Shown piece by piece: positions 12,621-37,048 of a DNA stretch of 64,000 nt. The notes below the pieces were generated by a model. That model made no database searches and had not been told where the DNA came from. It was given only the letters and a program-made list of their open reading frames with translations. Positions within the stretch are counted from its first letter, which is position 1, and the number at the start of each line of letters is the position of its first letter. The stretch lies in the NCBI GenBank assembly GCA_035530615.1, contig DATKUL010000002.1:744001-808000 (forward strand), written 5' to 3'. Both the position numbers and the translations under genes were made by a program. This DNA comes from Candidatus Paceibacterota bacterium. Lineage in GTDB: Bacteria > Actinomycetota > Actinomycetes > Nanopelagicales > Nanopelagicaceae.

Positions 12621-12705
12621 GGTTCGCGCCATTCATTGACAGGTTGTGCTATGCTTTTTTTGTCATAAAAAGCAGACTCTAGTATGTCAATTAGGGAGCA
12701 TGACT

Positions 12706-13182
12706 GTGAACCGAGAATCCCGCGCACGTGACCGCCGAACCCTCGATAACCGGCTAAAAAAATTCCCTAAAAAAGAAGAATTTACTGTCCCAAGACAAGG
12801 ATGGATTAAGTCCATTCGTGAAGCTCTCGGGATGAGCGCTGCCGACCTTGGGGACCGCATGGGAATAGCTCGGCAATCGGTGCTCACACTTGAAGAATCA
12901 GAATCTGGGGGCAGAGCAGGAATGGATTCGCTCAAACGCGCAGCAGAAGCCATGGACTGTTCGTTTGTATATGCCTTTATACCGAACTCAAGTTTGGAAA
13001 ATGTTCTCCGAAAACAAATCGAGAAGGTCGTCGCGCAAAGAATGGGAAATGTTTCTCATTCGATGAAACTTGAGGATCAAGTAACCGAACTGACGGATTC
13101 GGTTTATGAGGCCCTAGTCAAGGATCTAATGAATTCTCCGAAAGTTTGGCATTCAGCGATTCCGAAACATAGGCCGAAGTGA
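12706..13182 (+). CDS. Mobile mystery protein A (HTH regulator of a Fic module)
   Basis: A 158-residue protein of the 'mobile mystery protein A' family. Residues 35-80 are a Cro/C1 HTH (REALGMSAADLGDRMGIA), followed by the diagnostic AAEAMDCSFVYAFIP. The start is set at GTG 12706 because AGGGAG lies 7 nt upstream and the second copy of the gene (33071) also begins with GTG at the equivalent residue. Its stop overlaps the start of the Fic gene (GTGA). It is probably the antitoxin and repressor of the pair. TTGACA and TGTCAA flank the promoter region as an inverted repeat. Confidence 0.88.
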   Translation: MNRESRARDRRTLDNRLKKFPKKEEFTVPRQGWIKSIREALGMSAADLGDRMGIARQSVLTLEESESGGRAGMDSLKRAAEAMDCSFVYAFIPNSSLENVLRKQIEKVVAQRMGNVSHSMKLEDQVTELTDSVYEALVKDLMNSPKVWHSAIPKHRPK

Positions 13183-13787
13183 CTCCCGAGGATATTTTCT
13201 ACGGACCGCCTGGCTCAACTCCCCTTACTGAAGAAGAAAAAGAGGGATTGATTCCTCGTGCAATAACAATGAGATCAGAATTGAACGAGGCAGAACAAGA
13301 AAATATCCTCAAAGCCAACATTTGGCTAGACCGATCCAAGATGAGTGCTGAACAACTATTAGCCGCCAAACGGCTGAAAACCATTCATGGAAGGATGTTT
13401 GGTCAAGTATGGAGGTGGGCGAAACAATTTCGAAGGACAGATAAGAATATTGGAATCAGATGGTGGGATATTCCAACTCAACTGGATTCACTCCTCGCTG
13501 ACACTCTTGCGCAACTTACTGACACAACTAATGCGCGAAGGTCAAATGATGAAGTAGCCATTCGCTTTCACCATCGACTTGTTCAGATACATCCTTTTGT
13601 AAATGGAAATGGCCGCCATGCACGCCTCGTCACTGACAAACTTCTACGTATTTTGGGCGAAGAAGAATTCACTTGGGGCAGTTCGAGTATCGATGAAGAT
13701 GGCACCGTTCGTGAGAATTACATCCATGCTTTAAAAGACGCTGATAATCATGATTTCACTGCCTTACTGGGGTTCGTTCGCTCCTAA
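13179..13787 (+). CDS. Mobile mystery protein B (Fic-domain protein)
   Basis: A 202-residue Fic-family protein. The catalytic loop HPFVNGNGRHAR (near residues 137-148) matches HxFx(D/N)GNGRxxR fully, so it should transfer AMP or another nucleotide monophosphate to a target. The N-terminus has the family signature FYGPPGSTPL. It starts with GTG inside the stop of mobile mystery protein A. Compared with the second copy at 33.5 kb this one is full length and undamaged. Confidence 0.9.
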   Translation: MTPEDIFYGPPGSTPLTEEEKEGLIPRAITMRSELNEAEQENILKANIWLDRSKMSAEQLLAAKRLKTIHGRMFGQVWRWAKQFRRTDKNIGIRWWDIPTQLDSLLADTLAQLTDTTNARRSNDEVAIRFHHRLVQIHPFVNGNGRHARLVTDKLLRILGEEEFTWGSSSIDEDGTVRENYIHALKDADNHDFTALLGFVRS

Positions 13788-29878: not shown

Positions 29879-30038
29879 TGGAATGTCAGTGGCGCCTGCT
29901 ATCTTTTCAATTGCTCAAGAAGTGAGTCATAAGCCCTCTGGCTGACTCGCTGCCAACCGCGTCCTTCGCACACGGTGGTTCCAGAGGAAGAGCTGCTCGG
30001 AGGCAAAAGGCATCCGAGAAGAGCGAGAGGTATCTGCA
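29879..30038 (+). ncRNA. Structured leader element, copy B
   Basis: A 160-nt element nearly identical in its first 95 nt to 34723-34818. Paired elements include CCTCTGG with CCAGAGG, ACCG with CGGT inside it, and a downstream CTCGGA.../TCCGAG hairpin that covaries with the other copy (CTCGGGCAC.../GTGCGCGAG). The ribosome binding site GAGAGG lies right after it, 8 nt before the ATG. The layout is that of a cis-regulatory RNA such as a riboswitch; the central GCCAACC...GGTGG recalls the SAM-clan core, but this is not proven. Confidence 0.6.
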
Positions 30039-30236
30039 ATGGGAAGACTTATTCCGACCGGTATTTCAAAAAACGGACACAAATTTGAACTTGACTATTC
30101 GGTGGTAACTGGCGTCACCCGGTGTTTCGCTACGTGCGCCTGCGGCTTTGCAGAGGAACTCCACAGTTTTCGAAATCCAGGAGGAACAAAAGAAGTTCAA
30201 CTCATCTGGGAAAAACACACCAATGCAACGAAGTAA
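30039..30236 (+). CDS. Small Cys-containing protein downstream of leader B
   Basis: A 65-residue protein with CFATCACGFAEE (Cys-x3-Cys-x-Cys-Gly) in the middle, possibly metal-binding. Start: ATG at 30039, GAGAGG at 8 nt. It is the only cargo between leader B and the terminator-like hairpin at 30232. Unknown function. The stop codon lies inside the hairpin. Confidence 0.55.
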   Translation: MGRLIPTGISKNGHKFELDYSVVTGVTRCFATCACGFAEELHSFRNPGGTKEVQLIWEKHTNATK

Positions 30237-30269
30237 CGCTCCCTTCAATGAATTGAGCGGAGCGTTACT
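30232..30269. terminator. Terminator-like hairpin ending the leader-B module
   Basis: AGTAACGCTCC pairs with GGAGCGTTACT, with an inner CAAT/ATTG. There is no T-run after it; GGTGATGTG follows, as in the second copy at 36508-36552. It marks the 3' end of the module and overlaps the stop codon. Confidence 0.65.
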
Positions 30270-30301
30270 GGTGATGTGAGTAATTACAAATTTGAATCGA
30301 G

Positions 30302-31597
30302 CTAGGAGGTTGATCCGGTAGCTTCAAGCGATTTTTTGCAAGAGGTAACTCGTCCGGCAACACCATCAACCAGCCGCCCAGGCAAAGCGCTCTTGAGGCT
30401 TAGAACTGAGTCGGTGCTAGTGGCCATTGCAAAAGCATCGGGTGCTTTTTCGACTATCTCCCTAGCGCGAGCGCGGACAGTCTCCTCAGACATTCCTAAG
30501 TCAGAGGCGAGAATCTTCCAGGCAGATGGTCTTATCTCAACTCCGTAGCCACCCCCGAATTTCATCGCGAGTTTTATCTCCCTTCTCTTATAGTCATACG
30601 GCAGCGTGGATGAGATGTCGTAGAGCGGAGCCAGAGCGACGTCATTACTTCCGATCAACATCGAGTAGTTCTTTCCGTGCGCATCTGTTGCACACAAGAG
30701 CCAATTCCAGACCAGAGCGTCTAAAAACTTCCCTATTGAGTCAGCACTTCTTGTTGCAGGTATAACAATTCGCATCAAGTTGGCGATGGCTTTGGGCGAC
30801 GGCCCGCCACTCTCCTGATATTTCTTCAATGGATGCAATCCAAGGGCTTGGCACATATCTTCTTGGTGCAGGCGGATCTGCTGCCCGTTTATTTCTGTCC
30901 TGTCGTAGCGCCGCACAAAAAGTGCGGTTTGATCTTCGAACCCGTGTATTTCTGTCGCAACGGCGTCGATGCCAGCGTTCCTTGCGGCACTGAGGCAAAG
31001 GTGTTCGTTTAGGTCGTGGGAGTCCAATCCCTTGATCGCTGGTTTGACTATGTGGGTCGTCGCAGTTGAACCGTTTGGGCGCCCCCATCTTTGCCCATCC
31101 CAGAGCAACGCTGTTTTTGACTGTGCTCCCGCAAGACTGAACCTGCCGGGGGGATTCGTCCCAAGCCAGTCAGTGGCATCCGCCTTTAGATTACGAATCA
31201 AGGTGGCCATCTCGGTATCACTCAACCAATCACTCTGATTTGGTCTAGCAATAAAGTCATCAATCCGTTCGGGTCTCACAAAGGAGAATGCCCCCGGACA
31301 ATCTTCTCCGACGGGGGATCCAAGCAGTCCAAATGGCTTCCGTTCCCTCACCCCAAAATCTATGCGCCACTTTTCCAGCACATTCGGATCATCCGGCAGT
31401 AGGCCCCAAAGCCAGTTTTCCAGAGCAGCACCTTTGTACGATGAGCTCTCGAGCGGCATCATCGTAGATAGTGGTACTGCATGGATATCGGCGCGGTAGG
31501 CGTCATCGAATCGGATTTCGAGTTCTCCGCCCGAGTGCAGAATCAACTCCCCAACTACGTGATTTTGGTAGATGACGTGAAGGCTGCCAGTCGTCAT
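30302..31597 (-). CDS. hipA: HipA-family kinase toxin no. 2
   Basis: A 431-residue HipA. Landmarks: the N-terminal domain ending around residue 100, FSLAGAQSKTALLW (nucleotide loop, near residue 150), the catalytic segment ATDAHGKNYSMLI (near residue 300) and LAPLYDISSTLPY. It is a different subfamily from HipA at 502 (only the core motifs agree), so two unrelated HipBA modules are present. It overlaps its antitoxin gene by 4 nt. Confidence 0.93.
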   Translation of the reverse strand: MTTGSLHVIYQNHVVGELILHSGGELEIRFDDAYRADIHAVPLSTMMPLESSSYKGAALENWLWGLLPDDPNVLEKWRIDFGVRERKPFGLLGSPVGEDCPGAFSFVRPERIDDFIARPNQSDWLSDTEMATLIRNLKADATDWLGTNPPGRFSLAGAQSKTALLWDGQRWGRPNGSTATTHIVKPAIKGLDSHDLNEHLCLSAARNAGIDAVATEIHGFEDQTALFVRRYDRTEINGQQIRLHQEDMCQALGLHPLKKYQESGGPSPKAIANLMRIVIPATRSADSIGKFLDALVWNWLLCATDAHGKNYSMLIGSNDVALAPLYDISSTLPYDYKRREIKLAMKFGGGYGVEIRPSAWKILASDLGMSEETVRARAREIVEKAPDAFAMATSTDSVLSLKSALPGRLVDGVAGRVTSCKKSLEATGSTS

Positions 31598-31941
31598 TTT
31601 TGCTTGCCTAAGATCTCATTCAGATCAATCTGCAGTAGCTTCCGCTGGCCTACCGAATGCTTTGTATCCACGTACTTACCTGTACTCACATCCGTCGGAG
31701 GGGTTCTATCGACGATTACCAGGTCGAGTCCTAATGTATCGATCAACCGCAATACGAGTTCTAACTCTGCCCGAGAACTCCCTTTCTCGAATGTTGAAAT
31801 CCATTTCCTTGAAACGCCAGCCTGATTTGCGAGTTCGGTTTGAGTAAGTCCCAACTCGTGTCTCCTCGCGAGCACCCTAGATCGAATGCTGTTTATCGAC
31901 CGAATTGTCTTCACTGATCCAAGACCGCTATTCGAACTCAT
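31594..31941 (-). CDS. hipB: HipB-like XRE antitoxin no. 2
   Basis: A 115-residue HTH protein; residues 24-75 contain RRHELGLTQTELANQAGVSR, a Cro/C1 HTH. The C-terminus is the toxin-binding part. A GGAGGG site lies just upstream of ATG 31941. Four identical-type palindromic operators spaced 27 nt apart start 14 nt upstream, indicating strong cooperative autoregulation. Confidence 0.91.
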   Translation of the reverse strand: MSSNSGLGSVKTIRSINSIRSRVLARRHELGLTQTELANQAGVSRKWISTFEKGSSRAELELVLRLIDTLGLDLVIVDRTPPTDVSTGKYVDTKHSVGQRKLLQIDLNEILGKQK

Positions 31942-31955
31942 CGGATACCCTCCTT

Positions 31956-32054
31956 TGTAACCACTTGGTTACAATATCACAATGTAACCACTTGGTTACA
32001 ATATCACAATGTAACCATTTGGTGTCAGAAATCAAATGTAACCACTTGGTGTCA
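31956..32054. promoter_or_regulatory. Four operators on a 27-bp period upstream of hipB2
   Basis: Sites at 31956, 31983, 32010 and 32037 have the form TGTAACC-AYTT-GG(T/G)... The first two are perfect palindromes (TGTAACC/GGTTACA); the last two are degenerate in the right arm (GGTGTCA). The period is exactly 27 bp, so they lie about 2.5 helical turns apart on alternating faces. Nothing is seen in 32055-32250. Confidence 0.9.
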
Positions 32055-32250
32055 AAAGTATTTGCCACACTCTTCGCGGTCTCTTTGAAGGTCCCTTGCG
32101 TCATCCCTGTCGGCTGGAGCGTTCTGACATTGCTAGGACAGCCTGCGAAGCCATTAGCGGATTCACATGGATTGCGTTGAGTACAAATTCTGGAGGACGT
32201 TGGGTAGTAATACCGACCGGCACTGCTGTGAAGAACAAGATGTGTTCTCC

Positions 32251-32772
32251 CTATTTGGGCTTTTGAATTGTGCCGGTATCCGGCTTTCGTACCTTTTGCA
32301 GAAGGCTTAAGTAGTCACTCGGCAACGCATCCTCTGAGGCGTCGTACAAATCATCTAGAGCCCTGTACTGCTGCTCTTTACGTGCTGCCCGGTATTTTAA
32401 AACTTGGTCAATGGAAATTCTTCGATGTCTTCCGACCAGTTCAAATTCGATCAAACCCTTTTCCAGTAGTGAAATGAGAGTGGGACGGCTGATGCCGATG
32501 ATATTTGCCGCCTCTTGCGTTGTGAGCATGGCCGCTTGTGGAGCGACCGTTACGGCCATTCCCTTTTTCATAACTTCCACCACCTGTACTAATACTTGAT
32601 AGAACTCCTCCGGCAGTTGTACCTGTTCGCCAACCTTCGCGCCAACAAGCAGGTAGCGCTGTGGAAAAGACTTTCCTTTTCCAACTTGAAAGGCAGCCAG
32701 GAAATTGGAGACTACTTCCAACTCCTTTGCGGACTGCGGGAGGTAGGTCTCTGCCTTCATTGATGCTTCCAT
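32251..32772 (-). CDS. Excisionase/antitoxin-type DNA-binding protein, apparently orphan
   Basis: A 173-residue protein with a MerR/excisionase-like HTH (MLTTQEAANIIGISRPTLIS, residues 84-103, and the wing LVGRHRRISIDQVLKY). Proteins like this usually precede a PIN toxin gene. Here no toxin follows; the next minus-strand gene is hipB2 with its operators. So it is either an orphan antitoxin or a regulator. The N-terminal half (residues 1-80) is unclassified. Confidence 0.75.
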   Translation of the reverse strand: MEASMKAETYLPQSAKELEVVSNFLAAFQVGKGKSFPQRYLLVGAKVGEQVQLPEEFYQVLVQVVEVMKKGMAVTVAPQAAMLTTQEAANIIGISRPTLISLLEKGLIEFELVGRHRRISIDQVLKYRAARKEQQYRALDDLYDASEDALPSDYLSLLQKVRKPDTGTIQKPK

Positions 32773-33001: not shown

Positions 33002-33057
33002 AACAGAGTATAGTATGTTATTATAACTCGATTAAACAGTGTATAGGCTGTTATTAT
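33002..33057. promoter_or_regulatory. Direct-repeat palindromic operators of the second mobile-mystery module
   Basis: AACAGAGTATAGTATGTT and AACAGTGTATAGGCTGTT, each an imperfect AACAg/cTGTT palindrome, start 33 nt apart, just before the HTH gene. They are likely its binding sites. Positions 32773-33001 show nothing else. Confidence 0.65.
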
Positions 33058-33070
33058 GCAGGAGGCACAA

Positions 33071-33544
33071 GTGAAGCGACGAACTCGAGAAAAGGTACGC
33101 CGGAGCCTAGATATTCGATTCAAGAGCCTTCCGCCTGTCGCCACTTTCGCACCCCCACAACAAAGCTGGATTCGAGCCATACGCGAATCACTTGGCATGA
33201 GTGCGGCTGATCTTGGCTCCCGTATGGGCATAACGCCCCAATCGGTCCTTGCTCTTGAAATTTCAGAATCCGAAGGTCGAGTTCGAGTCGAATCCCTAAG
33301 TCGAGCCGCGGAGGCAATGGATTGCACTCTCGTCTACACCTTAATTCCGCGCGATGGATTGGAATCTAATGTACGACGCCAGGCGGAATCTGTCTTTGAA
33401 GAAACGATGAAGAAGGTGTCTCACTCCATGAAATTGGAGTCACAACAGAAGGCGCCTGACGCGTCAACAAGGCAGGAACTTGTATCTGAACTGATGAACT
33501 CAGGCGCACTTTGGCGCGCCTCCGCTTCGAGGAAGAGTAAGTGA
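33071..33544 (+). CDS. Mobile mystery protein A, copy 2 (HTH)
   Basis: A 157-residue HTH protein (RESLGMSAADLGSRMGIT; AAEAMDCTLVYTLIPR), clearly a paralogue of the protein at 12706. GTG at 33071 has AGGAGG 5 nt upstream and is preferred over the ATG at 33056, which lies before that site. Its stop overlaps the start of the partner gene (GTGA). Intact although its partner is broken. Confidence 0.88.
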   Translation: MKRRTREKVRRSLDIRFKSLPPVATFAPPQQSWIRAIRESLGMSAADLGSRMGITPQSVLALEISESEGRVRVESLSRAAEAMDCTLVYTLIPRDGLESNVRRQAESVFEETMKKVSHSMKLESQQKAPDASTRQELVSELMNSGALWRASASRKSK

Positions 33545-33821
33545 CCACACCGAACTTATTTGGTGGCCCGCCTGGATCGACTCCAGTGGAAGATGATCAC
33601 CGGCTCGCGTTGATTCATCCTTTTGTAAATGGGAACGGACGTCATACGCGGCTTGTGACAAATAAACTTCTATCCATTCTTGATGAACCAGAATTTACGT
33701 GGGCACGGGATTCACTCCAGGATGAGAAGGAGTTAAGACGTGCATATATATATCTGCATTACAAATTGCCGACTCGCAGAATGACTACAAAGAGTTATTG
33801 TCTTTTGCTCAAAGCCCCTAG
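33541..33821 (+). pseudogene. Mobile mystery protein B, copy 2, broken Fic gene
   Basis: It keeps the N-terminal signature FGGPPGSTPV and the Fic motif HPFVNGNGRHTR but lacks about 115 residues between them, an in-frame deletion. After a (AT)n run at 33743-33754 the frame shifts; the other frame reads on as SALQIADSQNDYKELLSFAQSP and stops at 33821, matching the C-terminus of the intact copy. The open frame continues artificially to 33891. So it is a doubly damaged gene. Confidence 0.85.
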
Positions 33822-33954
33822 TTCAATCAACTATTTCGCACTCGTTTTGGAAGTGTTAGGTGTGCATGCAATCGACCCACATCGAAATTAAATGGATCAG
33901 AGGCCTCACTCATCTCTGAAAGACATGCCGTTTCAGCAATCTAGCCGTGTCTGG

Positions 33955-34350
33955 CTAATTCTCGATCAGCCGTACAGGCCCCGGATGTCTCGATGCTTGC
34001 GCTAGATCACACGTCCATAATTCTGCGTCCTGAGTGATAGCGGTTCCACAAATCAACGCGTCTGCCAATTTCATTCCCTGCGTCGCCCGAATAATCGCCG
34101 CAGCGCGCGCCACGATGATCGTCACTGGCACGATTGACTTTACACCAAGTCGAATTTGCTTCTCCAGTTTCAGACCCTCTACCGAACCGCCCCTATACCC
34201 AGAAACCAAAGACTCAGAAAGCGTTGCGGAAGAAATAATGTAAACATTCTGAGTATTCTGTTTCAAAAGAAAAACCGTTCCTACATGAAATCTATCGGCG
34301 GTATTTAAAGTAGCGATTAATGCAGAGGTGTCTAGAAGTACTAACCCCAC
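33955..34350 (-). CDS. vapC: VapC-like PIN-domain toxin
   Basis: A 131-residue PIN protein: LLDTSALIATL (N-terminal Asp), SESLVSGYRGG (middle Glu), MKLADALICGTAITQDAELWTCD (C-terminal acidic cluster). Full-length and intact. It overlaps the shortened antitoxin gene (34341-34529) by 10 nt. Confidence 0.88.
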   Translation of the reverse strand: MGLVLLDTSALIATLNTADRFHVGTVFLLKQNTQNVYIISSATLSESLVSGYRGGSVEGLKLEKQIRLGVKSIVPVTIIVARAAAIIRATQGMKLADALICGTAITQDAELWTCDLAQASRHPGPVRLIEN

Positions 34351-34529
34351 TCTTCGCGGTCTTTTTGAAGGTCAAAATCATCAAAAAGTCGACCGCCAGC
34401 GCCAATGAGAGTGAGAATTGGATTCGGTTGACTAGCTTGGTTCGTATTCTTGGATACAGATTTAGTGGTACGTCTCTCAGGAGTTGTGGATTTCTTGCGA
34501 GGGCGCACTCTTTGCGCGGATTTCGTCAT
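34341..34529 (-). CDS. Shortened antitoxin lacking the AbrB core
   Basis: A 62-residue protein. Its C-terminus NPILTLIGAGGRLFDDFDLQKDREEWG aligns with NPIMSLFGAGNGIFDDLDWE of the antitoxin at 11133. The Arg/Lys/Thr N-terminus also aligns (RRTTKSVSKN against GRTTTTRLSSKN), but the ~35-residue AbrB DNA-binding core is gone. The toxin-binding tail is kept, so it could still neutralise the toxin while having lost autoregulation. Confidence 0.75.
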   Translation of the reverse strand: MTKSAQRVRPRKKSTTPERRTTKSVSKNTNQASQPNPILTLIGAGGRLFDDFDLQKDREEWG

Positions 34530-34634
34530 AGGAAGACGGTAGCACTAAGGATGATTCGGATGAAGGAGATATCTTCCTTTGTGTAGACACCCACCGGTTA
34601 CTTAGTGTGATGGATTCATGTCCTACAAACTTAA

Positions 34635-34708
34635 GGTGAGGGGGTAGGTCCGTATGTGGGCTTGGCAGTTGATAAAGCATCGTGCCAAGAAGGTTACCTC
34701 CCCCTCAC
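34635..34708. repeat. 74-nt direct repeat, left copy
   Basis: Starts GGTGAGGGGGTAGGT, ends ACCTCCCCCTCAC; the ends form a long stem and GCTTGGCA/TGCCAAG forms an inner stem, so each copy is a double-stem structure. It matches the copy at 36897-36970 except at a few positions. Confidence 0.9.
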
Positions 34709-34722
34709 AAAATCGCTGTTAA

Positions 34723-34880
34723 GGAGTGTCAGTGGCCCCTGCTATCTTTTCAATTGCTCAAGAAGTGAGTCATAAGCCCTCTGGCTGACTCGCTGCCAAC
34801 CGCGTCCTTCGCACACGGTGGCCCCAGAGGTAGAGCTGCTCGGGCACACGGCGTGCGCGAGAAGAGCCGGAGGTTTACTT
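34723..34880 (+). ncRNA. Structured leader element, copy C
   Basis: Near-identical to copy B over the first 95 nt (CAATTGCTCAAGAAGTGAGT, CCTCTGG/CCAGAGG stem, ACCG/CGGT hairpin), then diverging with compensatory changes in the third hairpin (CTCG...CGAG). GGAGG follows, 7 nt before ATG 34881. It precedes a two-gene operon. Confidence 0.6.
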
Positions 34881-36487: not shown

Positions 36488-36507
36488 AAGGCCAACTCAA
36501 AGAACGA

Positions 36508-36544
36508 AGTAACGCCCCACTCAATAAATGAGTGGGGCGTTACT
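36508..36544. terminator. Terminator-like hairpin ending the leader-C module
   Basis: AGTAACGCCCCACTCA and TGAGTGGGGCGTTACT form a 16-bp perfect stem with loop ATAAA. The following GGTGATGTG is shared with the hairpin at 30232-30269. The tRNA-like gene begins 8 nt further. Confidence 0.7.
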
Positions 36545-36551
36545 GGTGATG

Positions 36552-36624
36552 TGCCCCTGACGGGACTCGAACCCGTATCTCCGGCTTCGTTGGAACCGTG
36601 CTCTGTCCATTGAGCTACAGAGGC
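36552..36624 (-). tRNA. tRNA-like gene with an unusual anticodon loop
   Basis: A 73-nt cloverleaf folds well: acceptor GCCTCTG/CAGGGGC, D-arm GCTC/GAGC, T-arm ACGGG/CCCGT with TTCGAGT, discriminator A, no CCA encoded. The anticodon stem is CGGTT/AGCCG with loop CCAACGA, in which position 33 is C rather than U and the anticodon would be AAC. Either a degenerate or unusual tRNA, or one with an indel; the body resembles actinobacterial Arg tRNAs. Confidence 0.65.
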
Positions 36625-36857: not shown

Positions 36858-36896
36858 GTGTTTCTATAAGCAGATTTATTAAACTCGAATTTTTAA

Positions 36897-36970
36897 GGTG
36901 AGGGGGTAGGTCAGTATGTGGGCTTGGCAGTTGATAATTCGTCGTGCCAAGAAGGTTACCTCCCCCTCAC
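36897..36970. repeat. 74-nt direct repeat, right copy
   Basis: Same double-stem structure as 34635-34708 (GGTGAGGGGGTAGGT ... ACCTCCCCCTCAC). The two copies bracket the leader-C operon, the terminator-like hairpin and the tRNA-like gene, a 2.2-kb unit. The right copy ends 79 nt before the acyl-CoA dehydrogenase gene. Confidence 0.9.
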
Positions 36971-37048
36971 GAAATGAATTTTACTCCTACTCGGGCGAAT
37001 TGTTCCTATGTAATTAGTAATATTTTGGCGAGTCGCTACGCTTCAACC

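Follow-up and report, generated by a model that had tools for sequence, protein, structure and literature searches.

The A2-B2 locus is best explained, with a probability of roughly 0.78 for the explanation as a whole, as a decayed type II toxin-antitoxin (TA) pair, Fic toxin plus Xre-type antitoxin, in which ordinary toxin-first decay of a mobile mystery protein A (MmA)-mobile mystery protein B (MmB) module would have left A2 as a solitary, self-repressing antitoxin. The locus lies in the window, the 64,000-nt stretch that was analyzed (C2:744001-808000 of the source genome G000, 2.16 Mb in three contigs). The lesions of the toxin gene and the intact state of A2 and of its operator-like dyads can be read in the DNA itself (Table 1), and chance similarity of B2 or A2 to the mobile mystery families was ruled out by the E-values of the profile searches.

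Table 1. Features of the two mobile mystery loci and their surroundings (positions in the window).
Feature	Position	Strand	Remarks
Paired operator-like dyads upstream of A1	12639-12687	+	2 mismatches to ACA-N10-TGT twice; 2/500 shuffles as good
A1, paralogous antitoxin	12700-13182	+	adjoins lexA; TIGR02612 145.9 bits; ORF from GTG 12646
B1, paralogous Fic toxin	13179-13787	+	TIGR02613 228.4 bits; model pLDDT 89.7
52-bp direct repeat	30227-30278 and 36503-36553		86.5% identity; flanks 6.3-kb TA block
hipBA	30302-31941		upstream of A2-B2
hipB	31594-31941	-	
HTH_17 (excisionase-type) protein gene	32251-32772		no recognizable partner toxin
Operator-like dyad 1 (ACA-N10-TGT)	33003-33018	+	upstream of A2; 0/500 upstream-region shuffles as good
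Operator-like dyad 2	33036-33051	+	upstream of A2; 33 bp from dyad 1
A2, MmA (Xre-type HTH; predicted antitoxin and autorepressor)	33071-33544	+	TIGR02612, HTH_3
B2 ORF, wrecked MmB (Fic)	33541-33891	+	116 aa
B2 toxin N-terminus remnant, 19 codons	33541-33597	+	112-codon deletion at right edge
B2 retained Fic segment, 51 codons, with catalytic loop	33598-33750	+	63% identity to B1 over 51 residues
(AT)5 run, end of homology in the B2 frame	33744-33753	+	
Toxin C-terminus in another phase	33754-33821	+	three-frame translation; stop TAG 33819-33821
PIN toxin gene with small upstream ORF	33955-34529		downstream of A2-B2

With most of its domain deleted, B2 aligns with the MmB profile (TIGR02613) over model positions 116-168 of 186 only and scores 55 bits, where the cut-off is 124.4. 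The Pfam Fic match (23.7 bits) falls under the cut-off of 24; B2 is thus a remnant and not a family member. The deletion junction reads GSTPVEDD/HRLALIHPFVNGNGRHTR, and H20 of B2 aligns with H132 of B1; the gap therefore amounts to 112 codons (336 nt) and keeps the frame. An earlier note on this DNA had claimed an in-frame loss of about 115 residues, which stands as to the frame but is corrected to 112 codons by the alignment to B1. The same note placed a frameshift at an (AT)n run, and three-frame translation bears this out, with the conserved C-terminal end ALQIADSQNDYKELLSFAQSP continuing in another phase past the (AT)5 run. It was also right that the catalytic loop, HPFVNGNGRHTR, remains, though without its scaffold. 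Its suggestion that the deletion alone may have removed the target-binding part is too narrow: in the B1 model, the loss covers the first three helices of the Fic fold, the flap, and the greater part of helix 4 (the missing residues, 20-131 of B1, hold the flap, the helices at 32-52, 57-60, 63-74, and 95-114, and most of the one at 123-137). Among 24 invariant MmB columns, two within the retained part of B2 are altered (V135 and G167 of B1, both Ala in B2). Judging from the model, the B2 toxin is almost surely dead, having lost most of the Fic fold, and a working short toxin is ruled out on the same ground. Whether the frameshift is real does not matter for this outcome because the 112-codon deletion alone suffices.

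At less than even odds, the frameshift could still be a sequencing or assembly error, in which case the product would be a Fic protein that is shortened but has its normal C-terminus, as the genus loci G006 and G011, with open, in-frame-shortened B genes beside an intact A, appear to make. The position of the shift in the (AT)5 run and a downstream phase that stays open, with conserved sequence up to its stop, both agree with an error; against it, the locus is single copy, and the Fic fold is short of 112 codons in either case.

The antitoxin gene, by contrast with B2, exceeds the curated cut-off of its family (TIGR02612, 144.3 versus 122.6 bits, E 2.5e-42) and matches HTH_3 with 30.1 bits, which agrees with the earlier description of an intact HTH antitoxin next to a toxin killed by deletion plus frameshift, as the family matches and lesions support. 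With its conserved residues retained, A2 is ruled out as a dead gene; being intact beside a nonfunctional partner toxin, it is an orphan (solitary) antitoxin. Its longest ORF opens at ATG 33056, and the start chosen earlier, GTG 33071, is favored by AGGAGG at 33059-33064. The end of A2 and the beginning of B2 still overlap by four bases (GTGA, 33541-33544).

The intact pair at 12.7 kb is likewise as previously described, since both A1 and B1 exceed their family cut-offs; B1 aligns with TIGR02613 over positions 2-186 and with Pfam Fic at 46.2 bits. Its AlphaFold2 model is a Fic fold (pTM 0.84), and the nearest solved folds are VbhT with VbhA (3zcb; TM 0.68/0.73, probability 1.00) and FICD, with EcFicT/EcFicA further down. 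The Fic fold by which class I FicTA toxins are recognized is thus present in B1 and lost from B2. In a PADLOC scan, the antitoxins gave weak, general matches, and B1 matched PDC-S04 (E 4e-22). A1 and A2 share 49% identity (80/162). In the A tree, A1 groups with G141, G006, G019, and G011 (support 99/97); A2 is not a recent copy of A1 because it stands outside this five-member group. No second copy of the A2-B2 locus was found among the genus genomes searched.

The 51 retained codons of B2 differ from G019 at 17/10/34 first/second/third codon positions, and A2 differs from it at 57/44/102 (156 codons compared). The B2 segment is 63 to 65% identical to G000-1, G019, and G141, and A2 is 49 to 57% identical to the A proteins there; for comparison, intact pairs show A at 61 to 68% and B at 80 to 83% identity. 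The B2 segment looks somewhat less conserved than expected, yet mostly shaped by selection at the protein level, which suggests, from few pairs, that B2 died fairly recently. Since this death may be recent, the retention of A2 need not mean selection.

As judged from the sequences surveyed, toxin losses are repeated among related pairs and a common form of decay. Starting from A genes, B was intact at 29 and broken or absent at 13 of 42 assessable loci; starting from B genes, an intact A stood beside all 21 assessable intact B genes. Each search misses loci without its own gene, as the former needs a recognizable A and the latter a recognizable B. The A-seeded tally combines (i) a first search of 26 loci, 25 of them counted (L067 was excluded as weak), of which 16 have an intact B and 9 a broken or missing one (L042, L049, L056, L058, L059, L060, L061, L065, and L066); (ii) the genus search of 21 genomes, adding G000-1, G019, and G007 as intact and G000-2 and G006 as not; (iii) a phylum sample of 396 genomes, adding G549, G291, and G397 as intact and G410 without B; and (iv) 10 loci on viral contigs, 7 intact, L151 without B, and 2 cut by the contig end (L148 and L150, excluded). 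G570 (stop inside A) was also excluded; G011 and L042, being the same locus, enter the tally once, and matches of the genus and phylum searches that fell short of the family cut-off were left uncounted. The intact B genes of the B-seeded tally came from 201 family genomes (5), the phylum sample (3 more), and viral contigs (13), after exclusion of G011 (shortened B), L164 and L169 (contig ends), L170-L172, G250, and G390 (weak or other Fic), and L166-L168 (identical over the fetched stretch, with a divergent B and another HTH gene upstream). The viral counts overstate independence, as L143/L144 and L145-L147 with their B-seeded partners have identical scores and are apparent near-copies.

On the A tree (35 rows, 12 with a broken B; L054, viral loci, and near-copies of L045 left out), the broken-B label requires 10 changes, at least 5 of them forced by well-supported branches, and it is unclustered (288/500 shuffles as low); several branches are long, and parts of the tree are unsure. 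Plasmid tblastn searches returned 265 records with the A query and 254 with the B query, which contribute no counts. A gap between the two in Sinorhizobium plasmids (41 versus 17 records) was considered as a sign of orphan antitoxins and dropped: of five regions fetched, four were annotated (S. medicae SU277 was not), and all four have a full-length B (CDS of 597 to 606 nt). At L069, the solitary MmA of G410, the downstream ORF appears by eye RelE/HigB-like and is followed by an Xre-like ORF.

One lead on these proteins is a conserved motif in MmA. All 35/35 aligned A proteins share the residues L127, E128, and Q130 (A2 numbering), which form a [ST]MxLExQ motif whose Ser/Thr, four residues before the Glu, is present in 34/35 rows (exception L068). 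In the A2 model (pLDDT 81.4, pTM 0.49), E128 terminates a long helix, 102-128. We propose, from sequence comparison, that this segment with its invariant Glu is a Fic-inhibitory helix, and we likewise propose to class MmA, with its Xre domain, as a class I-like Fic antitoxin. The inhibitory-helix signature of Fic antitoxins is given as (S/T)xxxE(G/N) (PMC3667792); the residue after the invariant Glu is Gly or Asn in 10 of the 35 A rows and Asp in 21, and Ser in A2 (SMKLES). The likeness to class I FicTA (VbhA-VbhT, EcFicA-EcFicT) lies in an antitoxin with (S/T)xxxE preceding a Fic toxin and in VbhT as the nearest fold to B1, whereas the Xre-type HTH of MmA, its mostly Asp residue after the Glu, and an Asn in the MmB loop are differences. 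The AMPylation loop consensus is HPFx(D/E)GN(G/K)R (PMC7479194); B1 and all 24 aligned MmB rows depart from it by reading HPFxNGNGR, with an invariant Asn (N142 of B1) at the D/E position. Because Asn replaces the consensus Asp/Glu, the modification catalyzed by MmB is uncertain.

Other known systems resemble the pair in part. A1, A2, and B1 fit the mobile mystery families in score, gene order, and overlap, with B2 differing by its far lower score. These family names are merely listed, in an annotation and a table, in the accessible portions of PMC4725956 and PMC8649781, and in the literature found, available in part, no member is reported as toxic, neutralizing, or DNA-binding. The excerpted text of PMC2701414 describes 22 neighborhoods of Xre-Fic/Doc pairs, likewise with a predicted Xre antitoxin adjoining a Fic toxin. 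Orphan antitoxins of Klebsiella, with the Fic group among the commonest, are also antitoxins without a working toxin, but belong to antitoxin groups of another host; decay or anti-addiction has been offered there as an explanation (PMC7192599). The Fic network of Campylobacter fetus resembles the present case in having multiple Fic modules per cell, with cross-neutralization measured for one antitoxin, Fti3; it differs in that Fti3 is, per its authors, unrelated to known Fic antitoxins, and the available part of that account describes no deletion-wrecked module (PMC5651007).

The earlier note had imagined A2 as a cross-antitoxin. We regard it as unlikely that selection maintains A2 to neutralize B1 or incoming MmB toxins, whether as a cross-antitoxin or as an anti-addiction protein. 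The putative inhibitory segments are nearly identical (VSHSMKLEDQ in A1, VSHSMKLESQ in A2), the A2 dyads are intact, MmAB pairs occur on plasmids and viral contigs, and anti-addiction is already an established idea (PMC7180214, PMC7192599). However, overall identity to A1 is 49%, the A2 locus is missing from the other genus genomes searched, and a second antitoxin would be superfluous for B1 because its own intact, overlapping A1 is present. In C. fetus, Fti3 neutralizes a toxin in trans and its 48%-identical paralogue Fti4 does not (PMC5651007); since the two differ, an identity of about 49% predicts cross-neutralization unsafely, and with this unfavorable precedent, cross-neutralization was set aside as the leading reading.

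A second lead lies in the promoters. Upstream of A2, two 16-bp ACA-N10-TGT dyads span 33003-33051, and the exact pair (33 bp, no mismatch) occurs once in the whole G000 genome, where the reversed control pattern is absent; the dyad pattern alone, with two mismatches allowed, is not enriched in the window (3 matches versus 2.13 expected). Of 500 shuffles per upstream region, none equaled the real sequence of G000-2, G019, or G011, and 2, 3, and 6 did so for G000-1, G141, and G006, respectively; the counts were 133 for G007 and 151 for G089, both of which have other site letters. Site letters vary by lineage (e.g., TAAGGCTATAACCTTA in Bacteroidota). A letter-free score for two alike dyads over 38 upstream regions peaks at exactly 33 bp (mean 21.87, versus 14.89 to 17.21 at the other 37 spacings), and per locus, at 32 to 34 bp, 33/41 related A regions had at most 4/200 shuffles as good; related sequences are not independent here, though the site letters vary between lineages. 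The eight others are those of A1, L128 (G006), L017, L071, L072, L048, L052, and L151. Among 13 scored loci with B broken or absent (A2 itself, L042, L128, L049, L056, L058, L059, L060, L061, L065, L066, L069, and L151), 11 keep the dyad pair, and L128 and L151, on the letter-free score, do not.

We also entertain, as an improbable extension, a double life of MmA: it would read a cross-phylum operator code of two dyads 32 to 33 bp apart, with a constant spacing and drifting letters, and, the toxin having been lost repeatedly, it would persist as a solitary regulator of related MmAB modules in the same cell, through their promoters, their toxins, or both. Rather doubtful is the possibility that A2 represses the A1-B1 promoter in trans, a regulatory and not a protein-level cross talk. 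Both promoters have the two-site geometry, the right-hand A1 site GCAGACTCTAGTATGT and the left-hand A2 site ACAGAGTATAGTATGT agree by eye at 13/16 bases, and A1 and A2 share the recognition-helix core QSVL; the A1 pair, however, carries two consensus mismatches and is not significant by the letter-free score (91/200 shuffles as good).

The toxin lesions themselves are varied, as read from genomes that are partly metagenome assemblies. In-frame losses remove 65 residues in G006, 29 in G011, and 112 in B2; L049 keeps 43 codons of B, in frame; internal deletions in L060 and L065 shift the frame; L059 carries a nonsense codon; and B is truncated or gone in L056, L058, L061, and L066. The lexA gene adjoins the intact pairs G000-1 and G019 and the broken pairs G006 and G011; because both of the latter adjoin it, the toxin was broken at least twice, differently, at one chromosomal site. 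All three broken B deletions of the genus are in frame, which plain decay does not predict (chance 1/27, noticed after the fact), and together with L049 this could hint that shortened toxins are kept in frame as A partners (co-repressors or stabilizers) and are not junk, a very improbable reading given that B2 itself is frameshifted, that the other lesions just listed disrupt the gene by frameshift, truncation, or nonsense, and that 4/6 internal deletions with both ends visible are in frame, no strong excess (chance about 0.1).

The surroundings of A2-B2 are TA-rich, with hipBA, the HTH_17 gene, and the PIN toxin gene region on either side. The HTH_17 gene, searched in the other 20 genus genomes with its partner in view, has no homologue there. 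Just upstream of hipB, positions 31956-32055 hold repeats with a 27-nt spacing containing a palindrome-like TGTAACCA-N2-TGGTTACA, likely an HipB operator array. Intergenic positions 32048-32093 match 34327-34373, where the PIN toxin gene meets the small ORF upstream of it (47-nt match, 85%), and are likely the remnant of a second PIN-type module. The 52-bp direct repeat abuts a tRNA-Val gene (36551-36624, minus strand), and contig C141 of G007 (L117) has one copy with both outer flanks attached to it, which, for this single genome and with a left match of 117 bp, fits gain or loss of the 6.3-kb block via these repeats. Dispersed intergenic repeats (34631-34713 and 36893-36975, 94%; 29880-30031 and 34723-34874, 90%), with further copies in contigs of G007, G019, and G006, could drive gene shuffling here.

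Altogether, we favor toxin-first decay of A2-B2. In a working pair, the MmA helix with [ST]MxLE would block the Fic active site, like class I Fic antitoxins, and MmA would shut down transcription of its own gene from two promoter sites spaced by three helical turns. Inactivation would have struck the toxin gene before the antitoxin gene because a cell that lost the antitoxin first would be poisoned, and A2 would persist as a solitary, self-repressing DNA-binding protein of low cost. A2 may blunt related Fic toxins, but nothing indicates its retention for that purpose; as toxin-first decay explains the locus, no benefit to the host is needed.

By itself, the A2-B2 locus is ordinary, and its value lies in the wider comparison, which offers a counted case of toxin-first decay, each loss with readable lesions. 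Moreover, it gives two testable leads for a "mystery" family: in MmA, a Glu that is a candidate for Fic inhibition, and in the promoter, two operator-like sites at a fixed spacing, which spans Actinomycetota, Pseudomonadota, Bacteroidota, and viral contigs.
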